DNA from: Streptomyces parvus
Lineage (GTDB): Bacteria > Actinomycetota > Actinomycetes > Streptomycetales > Streptomycetaceae
DNA length: 64,000 bases
Assembly (NCBI RefSeq): GCF_014648875.1
Contig: NZ_BMRY01000007.1
Span: forward strand, 124,001-188,000
Reading direction: 5' to 3'
This document shows positions 1,949 through 60,156 of this stretch, one piece after another. The notes under the pieces are model-generated. The model was not told the origin of the DNA, made no database searches, and saw only the letters and a program-made list of their open reading frames with translations. Both the position numbers and the translations under genes were made by a program. Each line of letters begins with the position of its first letter. Position 1 is the first letter of the stretch.

Positions 1949-2296
1949 TCAGTGCGAGGAGTGGGCGACGAGGGCGGCGAGGAATCCGGCGACGGCTTCG
2001 GAGGGGGTGTGGATGCCGAACTCCTGAACCCACGGAGCGCCGTCGGCGGGCAGCACCTGGACGCGCCAGACGATGTCGCGCTTCCATGCGGCGGGGTCTT
2101 CGGGGAGCCAGCCGACGTAGACGTGACCGTCTGGGCTGGTTGCGTGGACGTTGGCCTCCGGGGTGTCGACGACGGCCCAGCCGAGGCTGTCGAGGAGGTC
2201 GAGAACAGGACCGGCGCAGTGGTCGGAGGAGAACCAGCAGCGGTCTTCCGGGGCCGGGCGGACGACGGCGGGCAGGAGGGTGGCGGAGGTGGTCAC
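1949..2296 (-). CDS. DUF317 domain protein
   Basis: 115 residues matching the DUF317 pattern of streptomycete mobile elements: a central VYVGWLPEDPAAWKRD segment, then WRVQVLP, then a C-terminal helix FGIHTPSEAVAGFLAAL. One DUF317 unit is present, whereas the gene at 3358 has two. The molecular function of DUF317 is unknown. The start is the ATG facing the divergent gene at 2512. It lacks the AALxRS tail found on many neighbours. Confidence 0.75.
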   Translation of the reverse strand: MTTSATLLPAVVRPAPEDRCWFSSDHCAGPVLDLLDSLGWAVVDTPEANVHATSPDGHVYVGWLPEDPAAWKRDIVWRVQVLPADGAPWVQEFGIHTPSEAVAGFLAALVAHSSH

Positions 2297-2806: not shown

Positions 2807-3298
2807 TCAGCGACCTGGCCCCGGGCCAGGCGCCAGCGGCCCGACGACGGCCGGAGGAGCGGCCTGGTCCGGTACCTGGCCGAGGACGTGTTGATCGCGC
2901 CCGGAGCGGGCAACAGCGGCCTGCGCCAACCGGGTTGCTGGGGCACGGTCCGCCGTCGCGGCGGTTTCACGCGCCTGGACCACATGGCTGATCGCCTGAA
3001 GGGCCGTACTGCTTTCGGCTTGGGCGACGCGAAGGTCGGCTGCGGAGCTGGTGATCCGTTGCAGGTCGTAGAAGGCCGGTGCGTGGCCGGGACGGGTGAG
3101 GGCGTGCAGGCGCTCCTGGTGCACGGCCACGGAGCTGTCGGCGGTGACCAGGAGGGCCGAGCGGATGTGCATGGCCGAGCGTAGGAGAGGGTCGTCGGTC
3201 GGGCGGCGGAAGGCGATCGACTCCAGAGCTTCGATCGGACCGCCCCAGGCTTCCTCGATCATGGCCGTGGCCTGGTCGAGTGCGGTGGCGTCGGGCAT
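2807..3298 (-). CDS. Helical protein with AALxRS-type C-terminal tail
   Basis: 163 residues. Residues 1-115 are predicted mostly helical with no recognised domain. The C-terminus carries the tail common to this element: a short helix ending AQAAVARS, then 31 residues rich in Ala, Pro, Gly and Val, ending GPGPGR. The same arrangement ends eleven other proteins here, including the relaxase. Possibly cargo of the type IV secretion-like system; this is inference. Confidence 0.65.
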   Translation of the reverse strand: MPDATALDQATAMIEEAWGGPIEALESIAFRRPTDDPLLRSAMHIRSALLVTADSSVAVHQERLHALTRPGHAPAFYDLQRITSSAADLRVAQAESSTALQAISHVVQARETAATADRAPATRLAQAAVARSGRDQHVLGQVPDQAAPPAVVGPLAPGPGPGR

Positions 3299-3357: not shown

Positions 3358-4302
3358 TCAGCGGCTGCGGCGCGGGGTCGACGCGCTGGCCGACGGCCGG
3401 GCCGCGAGAGCAGGCGCGGGACTCCCGGACGGGTTCAGGGCCGAAGCCGACGTGCGGCTTCGGGCGGCCATGACCCGGAGGTCGGCGGCCGTCCGGGGGA
3501 ATCGCGCGGCGCGTTGGACGGCCTGCGTGACAGCCGTGCGGCGTACGTCGAGGGGAGTGGGAGCCCGGGGAACCTGGGGTGTGCTCGGAGTGACAGCGGT
3601 GAGCGAGACCAGGTGTGCCACCTCACGGTGGATCTGGTGGCGCTCGCGTACCACCGGGGCTGGATCGGCCATGACGGCTGCCGTCGCGGCGATCAAGTGG
3701 GTGGGCGTACGGGCCGAGAAGATGGCCTCCGCACGGGTGCCCCAACCGGGTGGACCCGACCAGAGGGTGACGGCTTCGTCATCATGACGGGAGAGACGGT
3801 TGTCGATGAGGACGCCTGCTTGTCCGTCCGGGGCGATGATCTCGACGGTGCCGAGTTCGGCCCCGCCGTGGCGGGGCCAGCCGGCATCGGTCAGCGGTTG
3901 GACGGCGTCGGCCCAGCGGTATGACGGGCTCGCCAGAAAGCGCCCGTTGCCCTCGTACGCATCGGCTTCGGCGTAGTCGTGAGCGAGAGCGGTGGTCAGG
4001 CTGGCGACGATCTCGGCCGGGGTGACATGGTTGAAGGTCGCTGTCCAGCGGGGTGAGGAGACGGCTTCCTCGGATGCGGCGATCTTCCACAGCTCGAAGT
4101 CGTCGCCGAACCAGCCGATGCGGATCCTCTGGTCGGGCGACGTGACGAGGAGCTGGCAGGGACCATCATCGAGGTAGTGGTGCGGCCAGTGAGCGACAGG
4201 GGCGAAGCCGGCGTCTCCGGCTCCGTTGGAACCGGCCAGGTACATCGGGCTGACCAGTACCTCCTGGTACAGATAGTTGTCGGTGGGCTGCTGGACGCTC
4301 AT
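3358..4302 (-). CDS. Tandem DUF317 protein with C-terminal tail
   Basis: 314 residues from the ATG at 4300-4302, which has GGAG nine bases upstream. Two DUF317-like units are visible: residues about 25-115 (IRIGWFGDDFELWKI, then WTATFNHVTPAEIVASL) and about 125-215 (a second beta-rich copy ending in PTHLIAATAAVMADP). The end shows a tail variant, VMAARS followed by 32 Ser/Ala/Pro-rich residues ending PRRSR. DUF317 proteins often accompany Streptomyces conjugative elements; no activity is established. Confidence 0.7.
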   Translation of the reverse strand: MSVQQPTDNYLYQEVLVSPMYLAGSNGAGDAGFAPVAHWPHHYLDDGPCQLLVTSPDQRIRIGWFGDDFELWKIAASEEAVSSPRWTATFNHVTPAEIVASLTTALAHDYAEADAYEGNGRFLASPSYRWADAVQPLTDAGWPRHGGAELGTVEIIAPDGQAGVLIDNRLSRHDDEAVTLWSGPPGWGTRAEAIFSARTPTHLIAATAAVMADPAPVVRERHQIHREVAHLVSLTAVTPSTPQVPRAPTPLDVRRTAVTQAVQRAARFPRTAADLRVMAARSRTSASALNPSGSPAPALAARPSASASTPRRSR

Positions 4303-4426
4303 GGTCGAGACTCCGGGCACGTAGGAGGGGAACGCGCCCGCGTGCGCGGGAGGGTGAAGTGCTGGGGCGCACGCGGACGCGGTAGCAGCGGCGAGCCGGC
4401 ACTGGTTCTCAGCACCGCCACCCGGC

Positions 4427-5266
4427 TCACCGCCCCCGGCCCGGGGCCGACCGGGCGGTGACAGCCGCCGACACCCGGGGCTGGGGCTGCGTCGCGTGGC
4501 TGAACAGGTCATTCGGCGCGGCACTCCGGCGCAGGGCTGCTGCGGTCCGGGCACCGTCCCCCGTCAGCGGGACATTCGTATGGGTCCGCGTTGCCGCCGC
4601 GACGCGAGCGGGGCTCGACGAGGTTTTGAGCGCGGTGAAGGGTTCGCTCCAGTGCTCGATGGTTGCGTAGACGGCCCCCAGCGACTGGCCGGCATCGGTC
4701 AGGACGTAGGGGGCGCCGTGGTGCGAACCGGCGCGTCCGACCAGGCCGTCGGCCTGCATCCGCAGAAGCCGGTGCCGGGCGGAGGGGCGGTCCACGCCGA
4801 TCTCCTCGGCGATGTGACTGAACCGCAGAGGGCCGTTAGTGCCGAGGGCCTGGATAACGCCGGTCGTGTGCCGAAGGTTTAGACGGCCCAGAGCGTCCTC
4901 GACGCGTTCGGCTTCGGCCATCGTCTGGAGCGGCAGGTGGGCCCGGGACCAGTCCGACAAGGTGCGGTGCACGGGGGCGAGCGACTCGCCGAGCGCGCTG
5001 AGCTGGTAGGTGCCCCTACGACGGACATCGGAACGGGTGATCAAGCCGTCGGCCTGCATGTACATCAGCCGCTGGCTTACTGACTGCTCGCCGACGAAGG
5101 GGAGCTGGGCGGAGATCTCGCGCACCCGCATGGGGCGGTTTTCCTGGGCGAGGATCATCGTGGACCAGGTGGTCCACTTCGGCCCGATCCGGGCAATCGC
5201 GTGGTCGATGCGCTGAGGGTCGACCGAGTCGAAGCAGAAGGCGGGGGGCTGCGTGGGGCTGGGCAT
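4427..5266 (-). CDS. Tandem HxlR-type winged-helix protein with tail
   Basis: 279 residues. The start (ATG 5264-5266) has GGAGAGAG upstream. Two HxlR-like winged-helix modules are seen: residues about 15-100 (IGPKWTTWSTMILAQ, then QRLMYMQADGLITRSD) and 120-205 (RHTTGVIQALGTNGPLRFSH, then HRLLRMQADGLVGRAG). HxlR proteins normally have one module and act as dimers, so this may be a built-in pseudo-dimer. The C-terminus ends in the element's tail (AAALRRS plus 31 residues, last RGR). It could regulate the element or act in a recipient if exported; neither is shown. Confidence 0.7.
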   Translation of the reverse strand: MPSPTQPPAFCFDSVDPQRIDHAIARIGPKWTTWSTMILAQENRPMRVREISAQLPFVGEQSVSQRLMYMQADGLITRSDVRRRGTYQLSALGESLAPVHRTLSDWSRAHLPLQTMAEAERVEDALGRLNLRHTTGVIQALGTNGPLRFSHIAEEIGVDRPSARHRLLRMQADGLVGRAGSHHGAPYVLTDAGQSLGAVYATIEHWSEPFTALKTSSSPARVAAATRTHTNVPLTGDGARTAAALRRSAAPNDLFSHATQPQPRVSAAVTARSAPGRGR

Positions 5267-5289
5267 GAGTGCGCTCTCTCCGGTAGGGG

Positions 5290-6114
5290 TCATCGGGAGC
5301 GGGGGTGGGAAGCCGTGCTGGAGATACCGGCGGAGGGGGCTGCATCTGGGTGGACAGGGCGGCCAAGGTTCGCCGGGGCACCGCTGCGGCCGAGGGCAGC
5401 GGCCACACGCGACGTCGCCGTACGAGCCGCACCAAGGGCGGCCTCGCCGCGGGACGTGAGCGAGAGGAGTTGCCCCAGCCGGTACGGGCTCTCGCTGGTG
5501 TCCTGGTGCAGTAGCCCGTCGGCGAACTTCCGCCGGACGGTCGAGGGCAGCACCTGGGGACGTCGGCCCGTCCCGCCAGAGAGGAAGGGCTCCTTGCCGA
5601 GCGCGGTCCGGCACAGGCGTAGATCGCCAAGTTCGACCACTTCGAGAGCCCTGAGCTGGCGCTTCACATCTATCGCCCAGTCGTCGTCCCGGCCGGCACG
5701 CTGTTCCCGGTTCTCCTCGTGGGTCTTCGTCGCCGAGGGCTCGGTATCCGGATCGGGGAGAAGGCGCTGGTACGCGGAGACGGCCTCGATGAGCTGGTCG
5801 TAGGCCCGATCCTGCTTGGTGAGGAGTTCTCCGAGCTTCGGGATCGATGTCCGCAGGAACGCGTACGAAGTGCGGGCCCTGCCGAGTTCGCCGCGCCCGA
5901 TGGATTCGAGGAGCCGGAAGGCATCCCTGGCAGCAACCGTCACCCGGTCGTGCTGCTCGTTCAGCTTGTACGCGGACGTGATCACCCGAGTCGAGACTCG
6001 GTACAGCGGATCGGCAGGACGATACGTGGTGTTGAGCATGTTGACGTTCGAGATACCGAGCGCGTCGGCGACGAAGTGCGTACCGGGCTCGGTGTTCGGG
6101 TCGTAGGGGTTCAC
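5290..6114 (-). CDS. Hypothetical protein with C-terminal tail
   Basis: 274 residues. The N-terminal 150 residues are predicted helical (RVTVAARDAFRLLESIG, FLRTSIPKLGELLTKQDRAY); the later part (residues 150-235, VKRQLRALEVVELGDLRLCR) may be another small wing-like domain. The C-terminus has RVAAALGRS followed by 30 residues ending HPRSR, the shared tail. The ATG at 6112-6114 overlaps the stop of the upstream gene by 4 nt, so translation is probably coupled. No family recognised. Confidence 0.65.
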   Translation of the reverse strand: MNPYDPNTEPGTHFVADALGISNVNMLNTTYRPADPLYRVSTRVITSAYKLNEQHDRVTVAARDAFRLLESIGRGELGRARTSYAFLRTSIPKLGELLTKQDRAYDQLIEAVSAYQRLLPDPDTEPSATKTHEENREQRAGRDDDWAIDVKRQLRALEVVELGDLRLCRTALGKEPFLSGGTGRRPQVLPSTVRRKFADGLLHQDTSESPYRLGQLLSLTSRGEAALGAARTATSRVAAALGRSGAPANLGRPVHPDAAPSAGISSTASHPRSR

Positions 6115-6779
6115 TTGGCCGTCTCCATCCGGGCGAGCAGGGAGCGGACCAGGGTGGGAAGGCTGTCGGGACCGTCGCCGAGCCGGACGTGGTCAGTCAC
6201 CTCGTCGAGGACGTACGTGGCGTCTTCGAGAAGACCGCCGGAGATTTCCATGCAGGCGTCGGTGATCCGGGAGGCAGCGAGCAAGGACTCGGAGAGCACC
6301 TCGACGTAGTCGTCCGGCGCGAGACCGGCGGCGTCGGCCGCAGTACGGATCGCCTCCAACTCCAGCGCGCTGAAACTGAAGTCGAAGTCATGGCCCTGCT
6401 TCATGCTGGCCGGGGCGGAGAAGGCGGAGACCGGTGGTTCCGTGGGTATGCCGACGCGTGTGCAGATCCGGTCGACCGAAGCGGTCAGCTCGGCCAGGGA
6501 CTCGGTGAGCCATCCCAGGGCGGAGGCGTAGGAGGCCAGGGTGAAGAGACCTGCCGGTGTCGCGGGGAGCGGATCGTCGGCCACGAACTCTTCGAGCCGG
6601 TCGTTCAGCTCGCAGATCACCTGGGGCCCGGCGGACAGAGCACCGAGTACGGGATGCAGGTAGGAGCGGCTGGCGGCCGTCGGATAGTCGGCGGTGAGGA
6701 TCCCGGAGACGCGGTGCGCAGCATCGGTGAGCAGGCTCGCCAGTTCGGCACGCGTGAGCGGGGCGTGATCGGGGGTCAT
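6111..6779 (-). CDS. Hypothetical helical protein
   Basis: 222 residues, predicted all-helical and acidic, with no recognised domain. It overlaps both neighbours by 4 nt (6776-6779 and 6111-6114), placing it in a tightly coupled set. It lacks the AALxRS tail and ends LLARMETAK, so it may act together with one of the tailed neighbours, for instance as a chaperone or antitoxin-like partner of the RelE-like protein encoded just upstream. That role is a guess from gene order. Confidence 0.65.
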   Translation of the reverse strand: MTPDHAPLTRAELASLLTDAAHRVSGILTADYPTAASRSYLHPVLGALSAGPQVICELNDRLEEFVADDPLPATPAGLFTLASYASALGWLTESLAELTASVDRICTRVGIPTEPPVSAFSAPASMKQGHDFDFSFSALELEAIRTAADAAGLAPDDYVEVLSESLLAASRITDACMEISGGLLEDATYVLDEVTDHVRLGDGPDSLPTLVRSLLARMETAK

Positions 6780-7246
6780 CGCTGGGGAGCCTTTCGAGAG
6801 GCAGCGGCCGGAGACTGGACTGCTGCTGGAGAGGTCGACGGAGCAGCCGCCGACTGGTTCGCAAGGGGCGAGCGGGCGCGGGCGGCCTGCACCCGGGCCG
6901 CCGTACGGGAGTCCGCCTCGGTACCTCGCTCAGGGCCGGTACGGAGGTGAGCGGAGCGGTAGACCGCGTAGTCCTTCCGGCTTCCGGCGGCAACGAGGTA
7001 GACCTCGCGCTTGTGGTTCGAGTCGGGCGGGGCCGGGCGGAACTGGATGACCATCCGGTAGGCGACGGACGGATCCACGTACACCTTGTGGTATCCGGCG
7101 AGACGCCCCTTCAGGGGTAGGCAGTCGTCGCTTCCGTGGACCAGGTTCTGTAGCTCCAGCAGCGCCAGATCACGGATGCGATCGGGGAGGTTCCGCAGAT
7201 CCTCAATGGCGTCGGGATGCGCCGCGAAGGCGAAGCGTGCGCTCAC
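6776..7246 (-). CDS. RelE/ParE-like toxin-fold protein with C-terminal tail
   Basis: 156 residues. Residues 1-100 resemble the RelE/ParE fold: N-terminal FAAHPDAIEDLRNLP with helices, then PLKGRLAGYHKVYVD, AYRMVIQFR and EVYLVAAGSRKDYAVY. RelE-family proteins are usually 85-100 residues, act as mRNA interferases or gyrase poisons and pair with an antitoxin. Here the domain is followed by a 50-residue tail with AARARS and 30 residues ending APQR. No standard antitoxin gene is adjacent; the coupled 222-residue downstream gene is the only candidate partner. A toxin domain plus the tail shared with the relaxase suggests a delivered effector, which is inference. Confidence 0.65.
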   Translation of the reverse strand: MSARFAFAAHPDAIEDLRNLPDRIRDLALLELQNLVHGSDDCLPLKGRLAGYHKVYVDPSVAYRMVIQFRPAPPDSNHKREVYLVAAGSRKDYAVYRSAHLRTGPERGTEADSRTAARVQAARARSPLANQSAAAPSTSPAAVQSPAAASRKAPQR

Positions 7247-8010
7247 AGCAGCCTCCCCTGTACCGAACGCTGTACCGGTACGGCTGCCGCGGACTGGTGG
7301 GCTCCAGGGGCGGTCTTCGGTATCTCGGAGCTGCCGGCCGAGCGGGCGAGGGCGGCACGGGTCCGGAGGGCGGCAGTTTCACCGAGGTGGTCCGGTGGCT
7401 GCGGCAGCGGGGTGCTGCGGTCGTCCAGCCAGCGGAGAGCGGTCTCCTCATCGGGGAAGGTGCCCTCGCGCAGCGTGTACGTGTGGGCGTTGGAGTCCCC
7501 CTCTTCGAGGAAGAGGCGAACAGGTGCCTGAGCGGCCTGACTGTCACGGGTCAACGTCCATGCTTCGCACGGGTCGTAGTCCGAGGTCTGGCTCTCGATG
7601 ACCTCGTACCGCGTGCCTGACTCCCGGATCTGTGCCTCGATACGAACGGTGAGATCGTCGGCGGGAGTGGAGAATCCGGCACCTACTTCGGTTATCTGCT
7701 CGGGTGGGCAGCCGTGCTCGATCAACCAGTTCTGGGCGAAGGGGACCGTGGCGTGGTAGGCCGTCTCCATGGTGAACGTGTTGAGGCTGAGATCCCGCGC
7801 CACCTTGATCGCGGCTACCTGCGGCTCGCCGGGGACACCCCACGTGACCGACCCGTCGTGAGCGACGACGTAGGAGTGTGAGCCGTGAGGAGCGGTGTGG
7901 TGCTCGGTCAGGACCGTCAGGTCACCGGACCAGAACTGCTGCTCCGCGTACTCCGAGTCAGCGTCGGCGGGTGCAAGATCGTCGAGGTGAAAGTCGAGTT
8001 CCGTGCTCAT
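7243..8010 (-). CDS. Hypothetical protein with AALARS tail
   Basis: 255 residues from ATG 8008-8010, which overlaps the stop of the DUF4913 gene by 4 nt. Residues 45-210 form an alpha/beta sequence with no recognised family (SYVVAHDGSVTWGVPG, QIRESGTRYEVIESQ). The C-terminus is a clear example of the shared tail: RTRAALARS followed by 31 residues. Its stop overlaps the RelE-like start by 4 nt, so DUF4913, this protein and the RelE-like protein are probably made together. Confidence 0.65.
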   Translation of the reverse strand: MSTELDFHLDDLAPADADSEYAEQQFWSGDLTVLTEHHTAPHGSHSYVVAHDGSVTWGVPGEPQVAAIKVARDLSLNTFTMETAYHATVPFAQNWLIEHGCPPEQITEVGAGFSTPADDLTVRIEAQIRESGTRYEVIESQTSDYDPCEAWTLTRDSQAAQAPVRLFLEEGDSNAHTYTLREGTFPDEETALRWLDDRSTPLPQPPDHLGETAALRTRAALARSAGSSEIPKTAPGAHQSAAAVPVQRSVQGRLL

Positions 8011-8606
8011 TCCGTCGCTCCCGACTGTTCGGGCGCCGGGGTGACCAGCACTCGGTGGTTCGGCCGGGTCGGGCTCGTCGTACACGCGGCGAAGGGGCCG
8101 TCGGGGGCCCGGAGGTGGACCAGCGCCTGGTCCAGGTGGTCGCGGTGCCAGGTCGAAGGACCTGACAGGCCGGCCTCGGTATCAGTGAGCTGCTGCCACG
8201 CGAGCCAGAGCGCGTGCAGCCGGGCGACGGCCTCCGGGTGTTCGTCCCACCGCGCGCACCACGGACGGGAGGAGCTGATCTCTCGGCCGTAGACGGGGAG
8301 GAAGAGGTAGTTCACCCAGTCGCTGAGTGCGGTGAGTTCGGCGGCGTACGCTTCCCCGCCCAGGGCGAGGATGAACACCGAGGCGGGGCCCTCCCCCTGC
8401 GCGGCGTCGGCCGCCTCGGCTTCCGGAACGTCATCCGTGTGCTGGCTGGCAACGGGTACGGGGTCGGAGCCGAGGCGGTCGAGGAGGGCGCCGTGCTGCC
8501 TGACCTCGGCCATGGTCTTGGCGAGGGTGCTGGCAAGGTCGTCGAGATCCCCGTCGGGGATGCGGAACGGCTCGGGGTTGGGGGTGGTCGGGCTGGTGTC
8601 GGACAT
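8007..8606 (-). CDS. DUF4913 domain protein
   Basis: 199 residues. The second half (residues about 90-155) carries the DUF4913 pattern: WVNYLFLPVYGRE, RPWCARWDEHPEAVAR, LHALWLAWQQLT. This family is common in actinobacterial plasmids and conjugative elements and has no known activity. The start ATG at 8604-8606 has GGAG nine bases upstream; an ATG 15 bp upstream is possible but lacks one. A copy of the recurrent motif lies at 8645-8694, just before the gene. No shared C-terminal tail. Confidence 0.75.
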   Translation of the reverse strand: MSDTSPTTPNPEPFRIPDGDLDDLASTLAKTMAEVRQHGALLDRLGSDPVPVASQHTDDVPEAEAADAAQGEGPASVFILALGGEAYAAELTALSDWVNYLFLPVYGREISSSRPWCARWDEHPEAVARLHALWLAWQQLTDTEAGLSGPSTWHRDHLDQALVHLRAPDGPFAACTTSPTRPNHRVLVTPAPEQSGATE

Positions 8607-8644
8607 CGGGGCGTGCTCCATCTGTGAGACGGCGACATGCCCGA

Positions 8645-8699: not shown

Positions 8700-9900
8700 C
8701 TACCCGCCCGCGCAGCGAGGACAACGAGGGAAGGGCGGTGCCAGCAACTGCAAGGCACGGGCGGCTTGTTGAGGGACGACGCCGTTGCCGAGCGCGGTGA
8801 GCTGCGCCGGTCGTCCGAGTCCCGGCGTGGCGGTGACCCAGCCGTCGTCGAGGCCCTGCATCCATTCCACGAAGTCGGCGCGGAGTCGTCCGGCCGCGTC
8901 GGTGGGCTCGGGGACGGGACGGGTGAGCATCTCCCATCGGGTGATCGCTGCTGCGTACGGCCCCCATCGCCGGTCCGCTCCGCGGACTCCGTCGACTCCT
9001 CCGTCCAGAGCGGCAGGACCACCGCCGACAGGGGAGGACGCCACCCCTTCCCCGGGCGGCGGCCCGGAGTCCCCGTGTCGCTGGCCCTCGGCGTGGGCAG
9101 CAGCGACGCTGCCGCACTGGGCAGGGTCATGTCCCCGTTGCCGTGACGCTGGTTCGGCGAGCCCTTGATCCCGTCCGACGCCTTCGGGGTCGGCAGCAGC
9201 AGCCACTCGACCTCGTCGGCCAGGTTCGGACCGTGCCCCCCGCTCTTCCTCTTCGACGGATGCTGCGAGCCGCCGTTCTTGCCGATGTTGCTGGTCGGCG
9301 TCTTCAGCAGGGTCTCCGGTGGGCCAGGCGGCGAGGAAGGTCCGTTCGCGGCGGTGCGGGGCCCCGACGTCGGAGGCACGAAGCACGAGCCATGTCGCGT
9401 CGTACCCGAGGTCGGCCAGGGATCCGAGTACGGCACCGAGTGCCCGCAGAGCAGGCTGACCTGTGGTGTCTCCCAGACACCACGGGCAGAATTCCACGTC
9501 GCCAGGGGAACCGGCGGGGGAGGTGAGGAGGCCGCGCACATTCTCGATCACAACCAGGCAGGGTCGGAGGGCATCGACCGCACGGGCGACGTGCAGCCAG
9601 AGCCCGGAGCGGGTCTGGGCGTTGAGACCGGCCCGGCGGCCAGCAACGGAGACGTCTTTGACAGGGGAAGCCGGCCGTCAGGACACACACCCGGGGAACG
9701 AGGGACCAGTTGACGGCTGTGATGTCGCCCAGATTCGGGATGCCCGGCCAGTGGCGGGCCAGGATGCGCGAGGCGTTCGGATCAACCTCGGCGTGCCAGG
9801 CCAGCGTCCCGCCAAGGGCGGACTGCACGCCCAGGTCCAGCCCCCCGTACCCCGAGCAGAGCGAGCCGATGAGCGGAGGGCGCACGATGGTGGTCCGCAT
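8700..9900 (-). pseudogene. DNA cytosine-5 methyltransferase with a one-base frameshift
   Basis: Corrected for one extra base this encodes a C5-cytosine methyltransferase of about 399 residues. Motif I is SLCSGYGGLDLG near residue 15, motif IV TAGFPCQ near residue 75 (catalytic Cys), motif VI IENVRGLL, motif VIII HRRERTF, and the C-terminal motif LGNGVVPQQAARAL. The frame breaks at 9657-9659 immediately after PCQ: the coding strand reads TGTCAAAGACG where TGTCAAGACG would keep the frame. As written neither half is active, unless ribosomes shift +1 at the rare AGA codon. An assembly error, decay or programmed shift are all possible. It begins just after the stop at 9902. Likely role: protecting the element's DNA from restriction. 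Confidence 0.8.
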
Positions 9901-9901
9901 G

Positions 9902-10483
9902 TCACCGCCCCCGTGTGGTCCGGCTCGGGGCAACAGCAGCCGGTGGAACGGTGGAGGGCGCTGCGGCGGGAAGCGGGGCTGCGGTTGTGGACCGGCTGAG
10001 GGCGGCCCGGAGCTGCCGGGGCGGAGGCGGCGCCGCTGCTGCCGCAGCGTAAAGGGAGTAGGAGGCGTCCCGGAGGGATGCGTCCGCCAGACCGAGCGCG
10101 TCACCTATCACCAGCGTGGCCGCTTCGCGCGCATCCATCGCGTCGGGCTGGTCGCGCATGTGCTCGGTTCGCTCCAGGAAGGAAAGCTGGTGGGCCACCG
10201 AGCCGAGCGCGGAGGCCACCTCCCCGGCAGGTTCTACAGCGGCGGCGAAGTCGCTGATGACCCTGGCCGTGTGGGCGTCCAGATCCGGAGACACGGTGCG
10301 GATGAGGATCTCGTCGCCCAGGGCGGTGATCCTCTTGCCGAGTTCCGAGATCTGCTTGGCGACCGTCACGCTGTCCGGTCCGCGGTGAGGATCTCCGGGG
10401 ATCGGGAGCTTGCCGCGTAGGGCGTCGAAGTTCTCGGCTGCGGTGCGCAGGGCTCGGGCGTCGGATACGGGGGTGGTGTTCAT
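9902..10483 (-). CDS. Helical protein with AALSRS tail
   Basis: 193 residues, mostly amphipathic helix up to residue 150 (SELGKRITALGDEILIRT, AAAVEPAGEVASALGSVA), then an Ala/Pro run and the shared tail: LRAALSRS plus 28 residues ending RTTRGR. No recognised domain. It lies between the DnaB-like and methyltransferase genes. Possibly a structural or delivered protein of the element; function unknown. Confidence 0.65.
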   Translation of the reverse strand: MNTTPVSDARALRTAAENFDALRGKLPIPGDPHRGPDSVTVAKQISELGKRITALGDEILIRTVSPDLDAHTARVISDFAAAVEPAGEVASALGSVAHQLSFLERTEHMRDQPDAMDAREAATLVIGDALGLADASLRDASYSLYAAAAAAPPPPRQLRAALSRSTTAAPLPAAAPSTVPPAAVAPSRTTRGR

Positions 10484-10521: not shown

Positions 10522-11691
10522 TCAGCTGGGGCCGAGGGACCGTGGTCGTACGGCGGCTGACCTGGGCGCACCTCGGGATAGTGCCGAGGGTGGCGAGGGG
10601 AGGCTCGGTGAGCTGCGGGCGAGGGCCGCCTGCACCTGGGCGGGGCGGGGCACGTTGCCCGAAGAAGCTGGGGTCTTCGGCGCCGGAGGCGGGTCGCCGG
10701 TCGCCAACTGCCAGCGGGTGCGCACCTCGTCGAGCGGACCGAGTACGTAGAGCGCGTGGTTGATCAGTGGCCCGGGGCCCAGGGCCTCGTCCTGGGCCAA
10801 GGCTCGGACGGCGCGCGCGGAAGCGGCTGCGGTGCGGGTCACGGAGGACCGCATGACCCGTTCACCCAGCCATTCCGCGCTGCCGGGGCCTACGCCGTCG
10901 CAGATCGCGGTGAGCTGCTCGCCCGACAGCGTGCCGTCCGCCAGGAGGCCCCGCCGCTGGGCTTCCCAGAGCAGCGTGACCCGGTCGATGGGCTCGCCCC
11001 GGTGGTGCAGGGCACCGAGACACCGGTAGAGCCGCCCATGGCCCGGGTCGGCGAAGTCCCCCGGCCGCAACCAGCCCACCACCTCCTCCATGCCCTTCGG
11101 CTGCTCCGCGAGGACGGCGAGCAGGAAACGCTCGTCCTCGGCAACCTGGTCGGCCTGAACCGTCGGCGTGGTCGGAACGGTGGTCGGCGGGGCTGGCGGC
11201 GCGACCGGACGCGGTTCGGTACCCCAGCGCCGCGCGAGATCGGTGAGCACCCCGGCCAGGACATCCGCCGACCGCAGCGCACCCTCGACCTCTCCCCGCA
11301 GGGCGTCGGTCCGAGCCGCCTGGTGAAGACGGATCGCGTGCTCGGCAACGGTCCGGTGGATCGCCCCCTCCAGCACCATGCGGCCGTACACCGGAGCATG
11401 CTCGGGACGCGGGCAGGCCGAGACCAGAGTGTGGGCGTACACCGCGGTCAGCCCTCGGACGTGACGGTCGGCCTCGACGACGGAGTCGGTCACCCACGAC
11501 AGAGGCACCGGACCATCAGCCGCTGCCGCCGGGTGACCGTCGTGTCGGAGCTTCCGCAGCGCGGTGAACAAGGCCCGGTGAACCGGACGGTCGAAGTGAT
11601 CGGGCGCGAGCCAGTCCAGGTGCGCGAGCTGGTTCGGGTCGAGCAGTACCGAGCCGAGGACTGCCTGCTCCGCCCGCAACAGCGGGTTCAT
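10522..11691 (-). CDS. DnaB helicase N-terminal-like protein without motor domain
   Basis: 389 residues. Two copies of the DnaB N-terminal helical domain are visible: residues about 3-110 (LRAEQAVLGSVLLDP, DHFDRPVHRALFTALRKL) and about 190-300 (DERFLLAVLAEQP, DPGHGRLYRCLGALHHRG, SGEQLTAICDG). No Walker motif or RecA-like ATPase follows; instead the protein ends with the shared tail QVQAALARS plus 29 residues. In DnaB this domain mediates hexamer packing and primase contact. A delivered DnaB-N duplicate might contact recipient replication proteins, but that is speculation. It overlaps the gene upstream by 4 nt. Confidence 0.7.
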   Translation of the reverse strand: MNPLLRAEQAVLGSVLLDPNQLAHLDWLAPDHFDRPVHRALFTALRKLRHDGHPAAAADGPVPLSWVTDSVVEADRHVRGLTAVYAHTLVSACPRPEHAPVYGRMVLEGAIHRTVAEHAIRLHQAARTDALRGEVEGALRSADVLAGVLTDLARRWGTEPRPVAPPAPPTTVPTTPTVQADQVAEDERFLLAVLAEQPKGMEEVVGWLRPGDFADPGHGRLYRCLGALHHRGEPIDRVTLLWEAQRRGLLADGTLSGEQLTAICDGVGPGSAEWLGERVMRSSVTRTAAASARAVRALAQDEALGPGPLINHALYVLGPLDEVRTRWQLATGDPPPAPKTPASSGNVPRPAQVQAALARSSPSLPSPPSALSRGAPRSAAVRPRSLGPS

Positions 11692-12172: not shown

Positions 12173-13958
12173 TCATGCCGACAGCTCGAAGTCGTCGTGG
12201 CCGATGGTCTTGGCGAGGGCTCGCTCGGTGATCGCCTTCGTGGCACGGGCGGAGGCCGGCCCGACGACCTTGGCGGAGGGCTCCTTGTACCAGGGCTTGA
12301 GGTTGAGCATGGCGACCCGGATCCCGGTGGCCAGCAGCAGCACCTTGCCCTTCGGGAGGGCGCGGATCGCGTCGGGCGGCAGGATCCGCTCGGTACGCAT
12401 GCTCACCGAGGTGGACTTGCCACCCTCGCTGGTCGACACCGAGGTGGTCTGGACGTCGTGGTCACCGACCTGCCGACTGAGACGGTCGGCGAAGTCGGCG
12501 TCATCAATGCCCGAACCGATGATCTTGACGGTGGCGGCGGAGTACAGGGCGTCCATCCCGGCCTCGCCCCAGCACCGCTGGCCCTGCCGATAACTCTGCA
12601 AGATCGTCATCGGGATCACGCCCCGGCTGCCCAAGTGGCTGTAGAGATCGGGGAGATCGGATATGCGGCAGACGTTCGCGGCCTCGTCGAGCACGCACAG
12701 AGCAGGCGGGTCGAGTCGCCCGCCGGAGCGCTCGGCGACGATGACCGCCGCGCGCATGACGGCGTCGGCCGCCGCCGCGATGATCGCGCTCGCGCTGCCG
12801 CCGCCGTCCTTGCTGAGGAGGTACAGCGTGTCGCGAGACGTGGCGAAGGCGAAGGGCTTGAACTCGGGGAGGTCCTCGTTCGGGGTGACCCAGGCGGCGA
12901 CGTCGGGGTCGAGCAGGCAGCTCGCGTACTGCCTCGCGGTCTCAAAGATGCCATCGCGGGTTTCGGTTGCGCCGGAGACGGTGCCCTGGAGCTGGGCGGC
13001 GACCGCGTCGTGGCCGGCGTCGGTGAGCAGGTCCACCGGGGTGCGGTCGGCCGGGGTGGCGAGCCAGGCCAGGACGTCGGTGATCGGCCGCCGGTGGCTG
13101 GCGGCGGCCAGGAACAGCGCGCCGAGGGTGTTGCTCGCGGCGGTGGACCAGAAGTCGGAGCCCGACGACTCGTCCACGCTCGCGGAGACGAAGTGCCCGG
13201 CCAAGCGTTTCGCCCCAGCCAGGTCGCGGGCGTCGGCCAGGATGTCCCACCACATCTCTCGCGGATGGTGAGCGATCTGCTGCGGATCGAGGACCCAGAG
13301 CGTGCCGACCTCGGCGCGGGCGTCCACCGTCGCGGTGAAGGCGTCGTTCGCGGCCTTGTTACTGGTGAGCAGGACCGGGCCGGGAGCCGAGAGAATCGCG
13401 GGGATCGCCAGTCCGGACGTCTTCCCGCTGCGCGGGGCCATGATCGCGACGATCACGTCCTCCCAGGAGGCCCGGACCTCGGCGCGACCGGGGTCGAGGG
13501 TGCCGAGCAGGATGCCGCGGTCGGCGGGCGCGACCTCTTTTACGCTCCCGGTCGCTGAGGGAGGGCCGGAGACTCTTCGCCTTCGTGGTGCTCTCCTTGT
13601 CCAGCAGCGGTGCCAGCTCGCCCTTCCGGGCGAGGCCGGTCCTGGAGCCGGAGCGCCAGCGCATCCACAGCACGAGGCCGGTGGTGGCCAGGGCCAGAGT
13701 GATCAGGCCGGGGACGAAGCGCACGCCGACCAGCAGCGCTGTGGTGCTCAGGGTCGGCCACAGCATCTCGGGGTGCAGTAGGGCGTCCGTCGCGCGGAAC
13801 GGGATCCACGGTCCGCTGCCGACAAGGGAGTTGGTGACGTTGCCGGTCAGCCAGGCGAGGGAGCCGAAGGATATGGCGGCGCCGAGGACGCCGAAGAGGA
13901 GGTAGAGGAGCGCGTCCGACCCGGTGGTGGTCGAGGGCGCACTGGTACGTGGGGGCAC
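12173..13958 (-). pseudogene. VirD4/TraG-like coupling ATPase with a one-base frameshift
   Basis: With one extra base removed this encodes about 594 residues of a type IV coupling protein: two membrane helices (about residues 17-40 and 65-95), Walker A APRSGKTS near residue 175, Walker B-like ALCVLDEAANVC, and the family pattern IPMTILQSYRQGQ. Coupling proteins dock the relaxase-DNA complex and other substrates at the channel and pump DNA. The break is at 13538-13541, where the coding strand reads CGTAAAAGAGG instead of CGTAAAGAGG, between the membrane part and the ATPase. The start is GTG 13956-13958 with AAGGA upstream. An intact ATPase frame from 13456 would lack the membrane anchor. A functional element needs this gene, so an assembly error or a recoding event deserves testing. 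Confidence 0.8.
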
Positions 13959-14053: not shown

Positions 14054-14149
14054 TCAGCGCTCGTGGCTGGCAGGCCGGGCCATGGGCGGGGGCGGCGTGG
14101 CGGGCGCCGGAGCACTGATCTCGACGCCGGCCAGGACGACCTGAGTCAC
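14054..14149 (-). CDS. 31-residue peptide coupled to the relaxase
   Basis: A GTG at 14147-14149 overlaps the relaxase stop by 4 nt, the pattern seen for many genes of this operon, and opens a 31-codon frame ending in RPASHER. The first half is hydrophobic (TQVVLAGVEI), the second Pro-rich. It could be a real small protein or a translational link to the VirD4 gene downstream. Evidence is limited to the overlap and codon use. Confidence 0.3.
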   Translation of the reverse strand: MTQVVLAGVEISAPAPATPPPPMARPASHER

Positions 14150-15417
14150 AGTCGAGGGCCTGGCGCGCGCGGCGGGATGCTGGCCGCGCTGGGCTGCGTC
14201 GATCGAGCGTCGGGAGACGCGGAGACCTGAGCCTTGGCCGCTGCAGGTGAAGCGGCGACGGCGGCGCCTCGGAATTGGGGGAGCCATCGAGAGCGCGTCT
14301 GCGCCTGGTCCGAGGGCTGTTGTGGACGGCCGACACCGAGCAACTCGTCGTCTGAATCAACGAGTTCCGACATGGCCGAGTGGACGAAGTCCTCGGCGAA
14401 GCCGAACCGGTCGGCGAGCTGGAACGCCCCATCGTCGAGATCGGTGATCTGCTCCCCTGCCGCCTCCAGCGCCTCCCGGATGCGCTCCAGCGCGCCGTGC
14501 TCGGGATCAAGGAGGTGGTCGAGAGCCTGCTTCAGGTCGGCGCCGGTCTCGGCAGACCTGATCTGTTCGGTGAGCCGGAGGAGTTCCGCCCCGGCGGCGT
14601 AGGGCCCGAGCGGATTCGCAGAGGTGAACGCCTTGGTGGTGTCCAGGGCAGGGTCGAGGTCGACACCGTAGCGAGCGGCGCGGAGCATCTCGGCAGCGTG
14701 GGTGGCGATGGCCGCCCGGTCATCGGTCGGGGTAGTGGTGGGGAGGCGGTGACGTCGGCCGTACCAGTCGTCGATCTGCTGGAAGCCGGCGTGCTTGAGG
14801 AGCGTGGCGGACAGGTCGTCGCTGGCGCCCTTGGCCGAGACGCTGCCGCTGGGCTCGGCGGTGATGGTGATGGAGGGAGAAGGCATGCGGGTCTCCTGGG
14901 TGCGGGGCGTCGATTGCGGAGCGATGGGCAGGTGGCCCAGCTCGGCGAGAAGATGGCACTCGGATTGCAGACGGAAGGCGTCGCGATAGCCGTTGTGCAG
15001 GCTTCCATCCTCGCGAGCGATGGTGGCCACGACGTGCACCTGCCGTGGCCGGTTACGTACGACGATCCACCGACAGGCATCCGGATCACCTTCCGGAGCG
15101 ATCCCGGTGACGTCCACCAAACGCCGGGCGACAGCGGCCCACTGCGCGTCGGTGAGGTCCGGCTGCCGAGGATCGGAGCGAACCGAGCAGATCCACGTCG
15201 GCTGCGCGGGTACACGAGTACCGAGCCGTTCGACGGGTGCGTCGAGGGCGTGCGCCAAGTAGGGCAGCGAGCCGGGCTCGGCAAGCAGTTCGATCGGGGC
15301 TCCGTGACCTTCGCCCGCGATCAGCCGAGGGCTGACGTGGTCGCCACGTTCGCCGGGACCGTACAGGTACGAGAGCAGCCCCATGGTGTTGCTGGCACGC
15401 TGCAGGTGAGCGATCAC
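14146..15417 (-). CDS. Relaxase/mobilisation nuclease
   Basis: 423 residues. The N-terminus has the relaxase pattern of actinobacterial elements: MIAHLQRAS, GLLSYLYGPG, HVSPRLI, then CRWIVVRNRPRQVHVVATI with the metal-binding His near residue 128. It should nick the transfer origin and travel covalently with the strand through the VirD4/VirB machine. Residues about 208-262 form a module (LKHAGFQQ, then RHRLP, then MLRAARYGVDLDPAL) also seen in the proteins at 16146 and 17008. The C-terminus is a tail variant, AAVAAS plus 33 Ser/Ala/Pro-rich residues ending PGPRL. Start GTG with GAGG eight bases upstream; motif copy 2 lies 58 bp before it. Confidence 0.8.
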   Translation of the reverse strand: MIAHLQRASNTMGLLSYLYGPGERGDHVSPRLIAGEGHGAPIELLAEPGSLPYLAHALDAPVERLGTRVPAQPTWICSVRSDPRQPDLTDAQWAAVARRLVDVTGIAPEGDPDACRWIVVRNRPRQVHVVATIAREDGSLHNGYRDAFRLQSECHLLAELGHLPIAPQSTPRTQETRMPSPSITITAEPSGSVSAKGASDDLSATLLKHAGFQQIDDWYGRRHRLPTTTPTDDRAAIATHAAEMLRAARYGVDLDPALDTTKAFTSANPLGPYAAGAELLRLTEQIRSAETGADLKQALDHLLDPEHGALERIREALEAAGEQITDLDDGAFQLADRFGFAEDFVHSAMSELVDSDDELLGVGRPQQPSDQAQTRSRWLPQFRGAAVAASPAAAKAQVSASPDARSTQPSAASIPPRAPGPRL

Positions 15418-16145: not shown

Positions 16146-16913
16146 TTAGCGATTTCGGGAGAACGCGATGCGCGGGTCGACGGGGCGACCCGAAGCCCCG
16201 GAGGCAGCGGCGGCGGGAGTCGGCGCCTTGTCCCGGAGGCCCGAGCGCGCTGGGCTCGCTGCGAGCGCGGCGGCGTTGCGAGATTTGTTGGGCGTGGCGC
16301 CCTGAACGGGGAGGAGGCGCTCGGCGCTCGTGGGCGCGGGAGCGCGGCGCAGCGCCGCGTCGTGGGCGAGGCGGGGATGAACAGCGACCTGGAGACCGGA
16401 CCGCTGCATCGCCACCGTGGCGCTGGCGACCTTCTGCACGGACTCGGTGCGGTCGGCGGTGACGGGCAGCGTGTAAATGTCCAGATTCGGGTCCAGCCGC
16501 CAGCCGTGCTCCTCCAGGATGAGCTGGCCGCCGAGCGCCGAGGATTGGTCGCTGGTGGCCGCAACGATGCCGAGCTGCGGATGCTCGGCGAACGCCACCT
16601 CGGGATCTGTGCGCGGGGCCCGGTCACGGGTGGAATTCGCACGGGAGGCCAGCGAGGGGTCGTACGCGGCGTCCACGTCGACCTGGTAGCTGGCCTCGCG
16701 CAGCAGCGCGACTGCCCGGGAGGTACGCCCCGGTCCGTCACGCTGCTGATCAGCCAGTGCGTACAGCGTCGGCTGGTCCGGTACGGGGTGGAAGTCGAGC
16801 CGAGCCAACATCCACGCGGTGGAGACGAGTTGCTTCGGGTTCGCGGCGACGATGCCGTGGTCAGGGTGGTGACCGAAGGCGACATCGGGAAGTGATTGGT
16901 AATGGGTGGGCAT
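16146..16913 (-). CDS. Tandem-repeat protein with C-terminal tail
   Basis: 255 residues made of two related modules of about 75 residues: the first starts DVAFGHHPDHGIVAAN, the second EVAFAEHPQLGIVAAT, each followed by a beta-helix-beta pattern (LARLDFHPVPDQ..YAL; LEEHGWRLDPNL..YTLP) and a helix ending V-x-V. The second halves resemble the module in the relaxase and the 17008 protein. The C-terminus has AALAAS plus 35 residues ending FSRNR. The ATG at 16911-16913 lacks a strong SD, so the start is approximate. Unknown function, probably linked to the relaxase. Confidence 0.65.
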   Translation of the reverse strand: MPTHYQSLPDVAFGHHPDHGIVAANPKQLVSTAWMLARLDFHPVPDQPTLYALADQQRDGPGRTSRAVALLREASYQVDVDAAYDPSLASRANSTRDRAPRTDPEVAFAEHPQLGIVAATSDQSSALGGQLILEEHGWRLDPNLDIYTLPVTADRTESVQKVASATVAMQRSGLQVAVHPRLAHDAALRRAPAPTSAERLLPVQGATPNKSRNAAALAASPARSGLRDKAPTPAAAASGASGRPVDPRIAFSRNR

Positions 16914-17007
16914 GGCTGATCCATCCGGTGTGGGCGTGCAGGGCAGGGGCCAGGTCCGGGATGGTTCTGGTGGTACGAGGCACGGAGGACTCCGAGAAGG
17001 GGGGCGG

Positions 17008-18159
17008 TCAGCGACCGGGGGCGGACGAGGGGCGGGCCGGAGGTACGGGACGAACGCCCGCCGCTGTGGCAGGGAGCGCCGGGGAAGCACAACGCTGCGC
17101 AGCCGTCGGCGAGGGGGCGAGAGCAGCACGTACCCGTGGTGGCGCAGGCGTCGACGCAGCGACCTGGTTCTCGCGGACCCGGTTCTTCCTGGGGTGCACG
17201 GCATGGCGGTCGGCCAGATCGCCGCGTATCGCGCGCAGCTCGATCGCGTAGGAGTCGAGGCTCTCAGCGATGGTACGCAGACGCTGTGCGTAGCGGTGAT
17301 CGGCTGGTTCGCCGAACCCTTCCCACCACTCGGCCGTCGTGTCGAGGATCTCCACGACCCGCTGAAGAACGCCGTCGCCCGGGGCGGTCACTTCGCTCAG
17401 GTTGGCGACCATGTCGCGCGTATGCGTCGACGCCTGGATGTGTTTGGCCAGAAACCCGAGGCGGTCGCCGAGGCTCGTCTCCGGGATCCAGGGGGGAGGC
17501 ATGTCGTGTTCCAGCAGGTCAGGGTCGCACGAGACATCGAAGCCGTCGGCCCGCAGCATGTCGAAGGCCCGGGTCACCACCAGCCGCTGCTCCTCCGGGT
17601 CGGTCATGGCCGAGGGCAGCCGGTGGTAGTGCTCACCGCCGAACTCGACGGCGGGGACAAAGCCCGTGCGGTGGAGAACCGCGTCGGCGGCGACGTCGTG
17701 AGCGAACCGTTTCGGCTCCGGTCGTGGAGGTACGCCGAGCTGATCCAGACGGGTGTCGACGGCGGCCAGCAACCTTGTGACGTCGCCGCGGTGCTGGGCG
17801 TGCGGGCCGTCCGGCTCCGAGTCGTAGATCACTTCGTAGGCTGCCGGCTCATCGCTGCGGTGGCGGGTGACGAGCCAGCTCTCGGGATACCCGGGTGGGT
17901 GCTCGCTGGACGGTTCCTGCGGCGGCGAGATGATCACGTCGCTGCCGTCTGGAAGCGAGGCATGGACGAAGTAGTCGCTGAGGCCGTACTCGACGGTGCA
18001 GACCAGGCCGCGTTGCCGAAGGGGGGAGGTGAGGTGCCCGTACCCGCGTTCGTGCTCCGGATCGCTGTCCGGCGCCCGTGAGGCAGCGGCCCCGCTTGCA
18101 CGCGCGGTGATACGCGCGCCCTCCCGTTGGAGGGTAACCAGGGGCTGATCGGGGGGCAT
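17008..18159 (-). CDS. Relaxase-module protein with C-terminal tail
   Basis: 383 residues. Residues about 30-145 hold a beta-rich segment (CTVEYGLSDYFVHASLPDG, ESWLVTRHRSDEPAAYEV). Residues 155-210 carry the module shared with the relaxase (LHRTGFVPAVEFG, HYHRLP, MLRADGFDVSCDPDL). Residues 230-320 are long helices. The end has RVRAALAPS and 33 Pro/Ala-rich residues ending APGR. It follows motif copy 3 at 18240. Sharing a module with the relaxase suggests a role at the transfer complex; no activity can be assigned. Confidence 0.65.
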   Translation of the reverse strand: MPPDQPLVTLQREGARITARASGAAASRAPDSDPEHERGYGHLTSPLRQRGLVCTVEYGLSDYFVHASLPDGSDVIISPPQEPSSEHPPGYPESWLVTRHRSDEPAAYEVIYDSEPDGPHAQHRGDVTRLLAAVDTRLDQLGVPPRPEPKRFAHDVAADAVLHRTGFVPAVEFGGEHYHRLPSAMTDPEEQRLVVTRAFDMLRADGFDVSCDPDLLEHDMPPPWIPETSLGDRLGFLAKHIQASTHTRDMVANLSEVTAPGDGVLQRVVEILDTTAEWWEGFGEPADHRYAQRLRTIAESLDSYAIELRAIRGDLADRHAVHPRKNRVRENQVAASTPAPPRVRAALAPSPTAAQRCASPALPATAAGVRPVPPARPSSAPGR

Positions 18160-18292: not shown

Positions 18293-18988
18293 TCAGCGGG
18301 ACCGATGGGGCGGCGTCGGCGACGCCGGAGGTACAGGGGGCGGGGTTGGTGGAGCTGTGCTGGTGCCGGAGGCGGATCGCTTGAGAGCCACTCGCGCCCG
18401 CTCGGTCTGCGAGGGCTGCTCGGATTCGGGCCGGTTGGTCACGTATTCAGCGGCCCGTACCAGCGCCGGACCGTGGAGCGACAGCTCGTGCGCGTCGTGC
18501 CAGCCCTCGGCGTTGCGGATTTCCTGGGCCCGGCTCTCGTAGAGCGCCCGGGTGCCGGGGAGGGAGCCGTCCATGATCGTCATGACGTCATCCCACTCGC
18601 GCTGGATCTGTCCGGCTCGTTTCAGGGCGGCATCGATGCTGCTCAGGCGCCGGAGATCCTCGCTGATCGGCCCCCCGAGGTAATCGGCACCGGTGGCTGC
18701 GGCGCGGACCCCGGCCAATACGTCGGGGCCGTGAGCGAGGAAGACCTCGACGTGTTTCCACGCCTGGGCGTCGCGTACGACCTTGCCGTCCGCGTAGCCC
18801 TTCTCGTCCACCGGCCAACCGTCGTGGTCGCAGAAGTAGTCCGAGACGGCGTCCCAGGCGTCTTCTGCCTGCCTGATGCCGGCAGAAGCGGAGGCCAGTG
18901 CCGGGACGTGTTGCCGCCACGCCATGTGGTCGTTGCCTGCCGGTGACTGATCTTCGTTGGGTGAGGGAGAGCTGGACGAAGTGGGCAC
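18293..18988 (-). CDS. Hypothetical protein with VALKRS tail
   Basis: 231 residues from GTG 18986-18988, chosen for AAGGA six bases upstream. Residues 35-195 are helical (AWRQHVPALASASAGIRQ, DAWDAVSDYFCDHDGWPVD, AQAWKHVEVFLAHGP). The C-terminus is the shared tail ARVALKRS plus 26 residues ending HRSR. The frame is open to 19243 and the extra 85 codons have good codon use, so either the protein is longer or a separate small gene sits there. No family recognised. Confidence 0.6.
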   Translation of the reverse strand: MPTSSSSPSPNEDQSPAGNDHMAWRQHVPALASASAGIRQAEDAWDAVSDYFCDHDGWPVDEKGYADGKVVRDAQAWKHVEVFLAHGPDVLAGVRAAATGADYLGGPISEDLRRLSSIDAALKRAGQIQREWDDVMTIMDGSLPGTRALYESRAQEIRNAEGWHDAHELSLHGPALVRAAEYVTNRPESEQPSQTERARVALKRSASGTSTAPPTPPPVPPASPTPPHRSR

Positions 18989-19263
18989 GTTAAGTCCTTG
19001 GTTCCGGTGGCGGCGCCACCGCGAAGGCGGCAGCGAAGGGGGTTGGCGGCGGGTGGACGCCGACGGGTTCCTCTGCGGGCCGGCGGAACCGCGTCCGAAC
19101 GCGAGCTTCGGCACGGCGGCCCGGAGGTGAGCTGGGATGGGCCGCCCTTTCCAGTTGTCCGGCGGTTCGCCGACCCTGAGAATCGCCGCAGGGGTGCAGC
19201 CCGCCTCGGGAAGGGGGCGATCCGTGGAGGTCAGCAACTCCACTGCGGCCAGCAGCGGTTGAT

Positions 19264-24311: not shown

Positions 24312-24998
24312 TCAGGGCGCGACGGCTGGCAGAACACCGGCCAGCGTGCAGGGAGAGGAGGGGCGGCACTGGACCGCGAGGGTGGTGACGCGGCTCTCCG
24401 CGCCTCCGGCCGGGGAGCCCTTCCACGCGATCGACTGCTTGCCGGAGACCGTCACGGCGTACAGGTAGGTCTGCGTGATCGCTCCGGGGTCGTCCTGGAG
24501 AGCCCGGGTGAACGAGTCGGGGAAGTGCCCTTCGTTCACGACTCCCTTGGCGCGCTGACCGTTGTCCGCCATCTGTTTCCAGAGCGCGGGCGACGGGACG
24601 AGCTTGGCGACCGATGCGGTGTCGACGTACTTCTTCTCTCCGGTCATCCACCCGCGCAGCGCGGACAGCAGCGCCTGCTGGGAGTAGGCCCGGGTGTCGT
24701 ATGACCACAGCGCCGCTGCCGCCGCCTTTCCGTAGGCGATCGGGTCGTGCATCTTCGGCGGGTGGGGCAGAGCCCGGTGATTCTCCTGCGGAGGCGGCGA
24801 TGCCGACGGCGCCGCGCTGGAAGGAGGCGGTGTCGCCGAACTGCTATGTGGTGCGGGCGTGGAGGGGCCCCTGGCGTCGCGTGTGAGGAAGGCGAGCAGG
24901 CCGGCGAGGGCGACGAGCACCACCAGGGCGGCGGTGCCGAGCAGCGCCCGGCGGCGCACGCGAGATGCGCCGCCGGGGTTCGAGGAGTGGGCAGGCAT
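24312..24998 (-). CDS. VirB8/TcpC-like transfer protein
   Basis: 228 residues: a basic cytoplasmic N-terminus, one membrane helix at about residues 18-40 (LLGTAALVVLVALAGLLAFL), a Pro/Ser-rich linker, then an external domain (residues 80-225) ending in beta strands (ITQTYLYAVTVSG, SRVTTLAVQCR). This matches bitopic VirB8-like or TcpC-like proteins, which stabilise the channel outside the membrane. Family assignment rests on architecture and position. It overlaps the preceding gene by one base. Confidence 0.65.
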   Translation of the reverse strand: MPAHSSNPGGASRVRRRALLGTAALVVLVALAGLLAFLTRDARGPSTPAPHSSSATPPPSSAAPSASPPPQENHRALPHPPKMHDPIAYGKAAAAALWSYDTRAYSQQALLSALRGWMTGEKKYVDTASVAKLVPSPALWKQMADNGQRAKGVVNEGHFPDSFTRALQDDPGAITQTYLYAVTVSGKQSIAWKGSPAGGAESRVTTLAVQCRPSSPCTLAGVLPAVAP

Positions 24999-60136: not shown

Positions 60137-60156
60137 CCTGTGGCCTCCTGGGCCGT

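Follow-up and report, generated by a model that had tools for sequence, protein, structure and literature searches.

A RelE-type toxin protein with a C-terminal tail shared across a Streptomyces conjugative element, and its possible role as conjugative cargo

The closest described systems are toxins of toxin-antitoxin (TA) ancestry that carry a C-terminal signal and lie on an element with its own conjugative type IV secretion system (T4SS), namely VbhT of the VbhTA pair, from plasmid pVbh of Bartonella schoenbuchensis, in which a FIC AMP-transferase is fused to a BID domain and whose transfer during conjugation was measured, and a proposed PezT-BID fusion (PMC5675462). The same layout, in which a toxin domain is followed by a distinct C-terminal module and the element encodes a T4SS of its own, was found in a stretch of 64,000 nucleotides of Streptomyces parvus (contig NZ_BMRY01000007.1, positions 124,001 to 188,000; hereafter the window), where the minus-strand gene at 6776-7246 encodes a RelE-superfamily protein with a C-terminal tail. 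The toxin, however, is of the RelE type instead of FIC or PezT; the host is an actinobacterium, whereas VbhT has a Gram-negative host and a recognisable antitoxin; and the signal of VbhT is a BID domain shared with the relaxase, while here it would be a short motif present on a dozen proteins. At about 52 residues, with one predicted helix and then disorder, the tail is too short for a BID bundle, and because its signal is not a BID domain the RelE protein is not a member of the VbhT family. The best reading of the locus is that conjugation has taken on a TA-type toxin as cargo, as with VbhT, here of the RelE type, in an actinobacterium and with an undescribed short signal.

Placement at the C-terminus and a basic end are shared by the tail with the positively charged C-terminal signals of the Agrobacterium VirB/VirD4 system and with XVIPCD, the longer C-terminal domain of the Xanthomonas killing T4SS effectors, which are paired with immunity genes; the tail differs from these in sequence and length. 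Conjugation is known to carry over many plasmid proteins, among them toxins, as in the F-plasmid conjutome (PMC8406263) and in pKM101, which moves CcdB and SrnB (PMC11288057); these systems are Gram-negative, and the available parts of the two reports describe no shared short C-terminal motif. Integrated elements of the T4SS type, with VirD4, VirB4 and a relaxase, have been described in actinobacteria, Streptomyces included, and a RelE with a tail and a tail common to several proteins are both absent from the available text of these papers (PMC3218068, PMC9513070). Protein substrates other than relaxases are little known for Gram-positive conjugation machines. RelE would join FIC and PezT as a kind of toxin taken into conjugation, with consequences for the question of why toxins are sent by mating systems at all; a portable tag on a dozen families, if true, would make the injected set of this group of Streptomyces elements readable from sequence.

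The RelE domain and its C-terminal tail

The RelE gene shares 4 bp with each of its neighbours, the preceding gene 7243-8085 and the following gene 6111-6779, and its product consists of a RelE-size domain (about residues 1-104) and a tail of 52 residues.

6776-7246 (-): RelE-superfamily toxin with C-terminal tail, 156 aa, GTG start (open reading frame, profile, model)
6935-7246 (-): RelE domain, residues 1-104 (profile match to 4v7k, 2kc8 and 4fxe; conservation; fold)
6779-6934 (-): C-terminal tail, residues 105-156, with a predicted helix at 110-124, then disorder and a basic last residue
6863-6898 (-): tail motif ARVQAARARSPL, residues 117-128, beginning 40 residues before the C-terminus (conservation and shared motif)

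Searched as a single sequence, the product gave no match in Pfam, NCBIfam, PDB or PADLOC, so that a profile was needed for its identification as RelE. The profile, built from 37 homologues, matched Escherichia coli RelE over its full length (E=1.6e-5, positions 5-104). The AlphaFold2 model, with pLDDT above 90 across most of residues 1-104, aligned with ribosome-bound RelE (4v7j; Z 12.3, 93 residues, 2.2 Å) and also with Mycobacterium tuberculosis RelE proteins (Foldseek E=1.8e-5 to RelE1). The product is a genuine RelE homologue. A preliminary description of this DNA, made from the sequence alone, had proposed a toxin-fold domain of normal size, to be checked by structure prediction against RelE/ParE, and both the profile and the model bear this out.

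In the profile alignment, K54, R64, R90 and Y96 of the product fall on RelE K52, R61, R81 and Y87. Across the 37 homologues R64 and Y96 are invariant and K54 and R90 are at least 90% conserved, and the four active-site positions are retained in homologues down to 34% identity. A catalytic lysine of RelE (K54 in RelE numbering) is replaced by a variable residue, Y56 in the product, which leaves four of the five catalytic positions conserved. The protein is likely to be active as a nuclease. The RelE proteins of the E. coli and M. tuberculosis RelBE pairs have the same fold and the same four positions, but they lack a tail and are paired with a RelB antitoxin, whereas no antitoxin of a named family (RelB, Phd, YefM) was recognised by Pfam, NCBIfam or PADLOC among the neighbours of the RelE gene in the element.

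The core of the tail, AA[R/L]xRS, sits 34-42 residues from the C-terminus. Mean conservation among the 37 homologues is 0.87 in the core (residues 121-126), compared with 0.64 in the RelE domain, 0.30 in the linker and 0.40 in the spacer that follows the motif; at least 90% of them end in arginine. Homologues at 34-40% identity retain ...HAARSRSPQL... together with the Pro-rich end, and the motif is kept in nearly all RelE homologues. An origin of the tail in chance or composition was ruled out by this conservation and by the control genes described below.

The four distant relatives are all without the tail motif. In two of them, L201 and L202, the RelE domain lies directly downstream of an antitoxin of the Phd/YefM type (E=8.8e-6 and 3.3e-6, slightly short of the curated cut-off), and none of the T4SS genes of the window was recognised in the fetched stretch; the other two are L203 and L204. 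The preliminary description had noted a tail of about 50 residues absent from ordinary RelE proteins, and had named homologues that are always tailless and paired with a conventional antitoxin as the finding that would speak against it. What was found is that relatives in the element are tailed and without a known antitoxin, while those outside it are without the tail motif, an outcome that favours the finding.

The shared motif and the conjugative element

The same C-terminal motif, at the same distance from the end, occurs on 10-12 mostly unrelated proteins of the window. In addition to the RelE protein, these are:

2807-3298 (-): tailed protein, motif RLAQAAVARSG (motif scoring, orthologues)
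3358-4554 (-): DUF317 protein with tail RVMAARSRTS (Pfam PF03771, motif scoring)
4427-5614 (-): HxlR-type winged-helix protein with tail RTAAALRRSA (Pfam PF01638, motif scoring)
5290-6114 (-): tailed protein, motif RVAAALGRSG (motif scoring, orthologues)
7243-8085 (-): protein of no named family, likely start 8010, tail motif RTRAALARSAG (motif, orthologues)
9902-10483 (-): tailed protein, motif RQLRAALSRST (motif scoring)
10522-11691 (-): DnaB-helicase N-terminal domain and tail AQVQAALARSS (Pfam PF00772, motif scoring)
14146-15417 (-): relaxase-like protein, weaker tail motif AAVAASP (N-terminus resembles the main relaxase)
16146-17204 (-): tailed protein, motif NAAALAASPA (motif scoring)
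17008-18159 (-): tailed protein, motif RVRAALAPSP (motif scoring)
18293-19243 (-): tailed protein, motif RARVALKRSA, borderline in the leave-one-out analysis (motif scoring)

Beyond their tails the twelve proteins have almost no mutual similarity, the best pair being 14146 and 17008 (E=0.002). A strict pattern, AA[LRV]xR[ST] at -32 to -42, was present in 8 of the 27 element genes and in none of 348 control genes from the same genome, and a looser one in 11 of the 27 and again in 0 of the 348. In a leave-one-out analysis, with control genes as background, 10 of the 12 tailed proteins outscored every one of the 321 control genes, the exceptions being 18293 and 14146; the motif began 38-45 residues before the C-terminus, or 34 in the borderline 18293. 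The matrix in use is composition-corrected; an uncorrected one was dropped, since control genes reached 19.6 with it. The pattern was picked after the sequences had been seen, and therefore two independent checks weigh more than the counts. In the first, the matrix was built from the other eleven proteins, leaving out RelE; of the 43 RelE homologues, which come almost entirely from other genomes, 37 outranked the best of 309 controls.

In the second check, the same families were followed through 80 further loci. Twelve families bore the motif, in most members of the well-sampled ones and at about -34 to -45, and the families taken as tailless were nearly free of it: 6111 (0/61), 1949 (0/61), DUF4913 (1/80), Dcm (0/80), VirD4 (3/72) and 15622 (0/28), with the VirB4 family likewise without it. 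The absence of a tail from the 6111 product, as initially described, is therefore a property of its orthologues too. Three of the tailless genes are:

1949-2296 (-): tailless DUF317 paralogue of 3358 (Pfam PF03771; motif in 0/61)
6111-6779 (-): tailless alpha-helical protein with a weak NikA/ribbon-helix-helix-like stretch (motif in 0/61; profile; model)
8007-8621 (-): DUF4913 protein, no tail, candidate partner or antitoxin (Pfam PF16259, 2e-28; neighbour count)

The window is part of a high G+C genome of 8.03 Mb in 57 contigs. Among its minus-strand genes from about 1.4 to 26.5 kb, those with a presumed part in transfer, listed with the relaxase just outside the window, are:

12173-13456 (-): VirD4/TraG coupling ATPase, no tail (Pfam PF12696, 4.8e-34; PF02534)
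19264-20769 (-): VirB4-like ATPase (NCBIfam NF045971, 1.3e-18, under the curated cut-off)
21285-22757 (-): T4SS component with EccE/PrgI-like regions, used as co-occurrence marker (Pfam)
22902-24284 (-): TrbL/VirB6-like membrane protein (Pfam PF04610, 0.0016, under the cut-off)
24998-25306 (-): small membrane protein, DUF6112 / TrbC-VirB2 pilin-like
25397-26524 (-): NlpC/P60 wall hydrolase, putatively in a VirB1-like role (Pfam)
Contig 121261-123033, just left of the window: MobA/VirD2-type relaxase (Pfam PF03432, 9.5e-8)

Beside the relaxase, left of the window, are genes for a NikA/MobC-like, a WhiB and a DUF2637 protein. With a relaxase, a VirD4, a VirB4-like ATPase and other T4SS genes in one element, the RelE gene sits in a conjugative element of the T4SS type, and the relaxase, VirD4 and VirB4 expected of integrative conjugative elements of this type are all present. 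A search for a tRNA attachment site and repeats near the left part of the element gave nothing informative. Near the right end of the window is a tyrosine integrase gene (58742-60220, minus strand; PF00589 match at contig 182907-183545), which probably belongs to a separate integrated element.

Among 295 genomes of the same genus, the RelE gene was found in 86, strong matches to the T4SS marker 21285 in 90, and both in 82, and 87 of the 88 RelE copies that share a contig with the marker lie within 50 kb of it; the association of the RelE gene with the T4SS of the element is near-exclusive. Some genomes have multiple copies (three in G057, four in G110), which fits mobility. Close relatives of the gene are nearly all from Streptomyces, with a few in Actinacidiphila, Streptacidiphilus and Streptantibioticus, and a protein query across 236 genera of the phylum found homologues only in the source genus. 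Two layouts occur among the loci: that of the window, and a compact one with a divergent DUF4913-RelE pair after the T4SS operon. All 30 genomes tested had VirD4 and relaxase homologues, in most cases on the RelE contig and no more than tens of kb away, and the idea that compact elements are without DNA transfer genes was dropped on this account. Several neighbours of RelE in the compact elements (L034-L055) are without AA[R/L]xRS and have Pro-rich ends finishing in GRSR or GRTR, which may be another form of the signal.

Delivery to the recipient and other readings of the tail

We consider it evenly balanced whether the RelE toxin is cargo of the conjugative element, passed to a recipient by its tail signal, where it would be toxic. 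As a mechanism, a RelE-type, ribosome-dependent mRNA endonuclease would be fused to a bipartite C-terminal signal, made of a short helix with R-V-x-A-A-[R/L]-[A/S]-R-S-[P/A] about 40 residues from the end and then a Pro/Ala-rich stretch with a basic last residue, and about a dozen other cargo proteins would bear the same signal. The VirD4 coupling ATPase (12173) would recognise it, and the tailed proteins would reach the recipient hypha by way of the VirB4/TrbL channel, either together with the relaxase-DNA complex or alongside it. There the RelE domain would cut ribosome-bound mRNA; it could briefly arrest the recipient, which would aid establishment, or punish cells that get protein without DNA. 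The donor would have to restrain RelE, the best candidate partner being the DUF4913 protein (8007) and the second the 6111 product. In its general form, the proposal is that a basic terminus and, some 40 residues before it, R-V-x-A-A-[R/L]-[A/S]-R-S together make up the substrate signal of an actinobacterial conjugative T4SS and that a fixed set of a dozen or so proteins, the RelE mRNA endonuclease among them, is injected with the DNA, which we put forward tentatively, as somewhat short of an even chance. The earlier suggestion of a toxin turned into a delivered effector agrees with the RelE fold and active-site positions, the shared tail, the T4SS linkage and the precedent of VbhT; from these we infer export, entry into recipients and toxicity.

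Several observations weigh against delivery. The literature searched yielded no C-terminal T4SS signal of this kind, and for that reason recognition of the tail by VirD4 is argued by analogy. An unsupervised motif search of the 27 window genes recovered AALARS where it was expected, but random gene sets scored as well in total, and taken by itself this search proves nothing. In VbhT the module is shared with the relaxase, whereas here the relaxase-like protein 14146 has a weaker form of it and the main relaxase has a basic end and no clear motif (7/36, weak). RelE is nearly the sole gene with a clear motif in the compact elements, a few RelE homologues have degenerate motifs (L031, L033, L042 and L050), and in one locus (L038:8471-9667, genome G079) the RelE reading frame runs on beyond the tail and joins the following gene in a 399-aa fusion, in which the motif has become internal. 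No integrase could be assigned to the element, the only tyrosine recombinases of the contig being at 53374 and 182907, neither clearly belonging to it.

The main alternative is that the toxin is conventional and confined to the producing cell, as a TA-type addiction or stress toxin neutralised by the DUF4913 or the 6111 protein, with the tail as an internal docking tag to the coupling ATPase, the relaxosome or the membrane. The tight, translationally coupled operon of RelE with DUF4913, 7243 and 6111 is in agreement with it, as is the presence of the motif on the HxlR and DnaB-N proteins, which probably bind DNA or take part in replication. It could also draw on the weak ribbon-helix-helix-like stretch of 6111, but this fold is used by antitoxins (ParD, RelB) and by relaxosome proteins (NikA), and because it is common to both the stretch decides nothing. 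However, 6111 is missing where RelE persists, and a dozen unlike proteins tagged beside a VirD4/VirB4 set have the expected look of a substrate signal, so that we regard confinement to the producing cell as unlikely, if well worth keeping in view. A RelE fold that now serves, delivered or not, to regulate the genes of the element by binding ribosomes or RNA without toxicity would agree with the lack of an adjacent named antitoxin and with the loss of the catalytic lysine K54 of RelE (Y56); the retention of the positions of K52, R61, R81 and Y87 in such distant homologues argues against it and makes it improbable. A neutral origin of the tail, as low-complexity sequence produced by drift at high G+C, finds agreement in the spacer between motif and end, which is Pro/Ala-rich and poorly conserved (0.40), but the motif is more conserved than the toxin domain, stands at a fixed distance and occurs in 0/348 same-genome controls. 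Neutral drift is refuted as the origin of the motif, the spacer alone could be neutral, and as an account of the whole tail the explanation is very improbable.

Neighbouring genes and candidate partners

DUF4913 is one or two genes upstream of RelE in 73 of the 77 close-relative loci, and in the compact elements it is directly upstream, while 6111 follows RelE in 60 of the 77 and no match to it was found in the compact elements that keep RelE. Since DUF4913 is the constant neighbour and is present in compact elements without 6111, it is the better candidate partner, and 6111 as a universal immunity protein was not upheld. The preliminary description, which had seen no classic antitoxin beside the gene and had proposed 6111 as cognate immunity, was right on the former as far as named families are concerned; the latter is weakly supported. 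The 6111 product resembles NikA at E=0.11, and 7 of 25 family members match NikA-like, ribbon-helix-helix proteins; a fold search with its model gave no meaningful match. DUF4913 is not mentioned in the open literature searched, in which S. coelicolor SCO6880-type genes appear in one differentiation paper only.

Some observations on the other genes of the element may be added. The contrast within the DUF317 pair, 1949 without and 3358 with a tail, persists in their orthologues and offers a natural control for the role of the tail. The 10522 product, with its DnaB-type domain, is a possible replication-factor cargo and recalls the primases carried by Gram-negative plasmids. The second relaxase-like protein, 14146, adjoins VirD4; in G091 the relaxase query matches its orthologue, next to which there is an extra short relaxase-like fragment. 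Finally, a C5-cytosine methyltransferase at 8700-10104 (minus strand) appears split across two frames, 9304-10104 and 8700-9551, which suggests a frameshift in the window copy.
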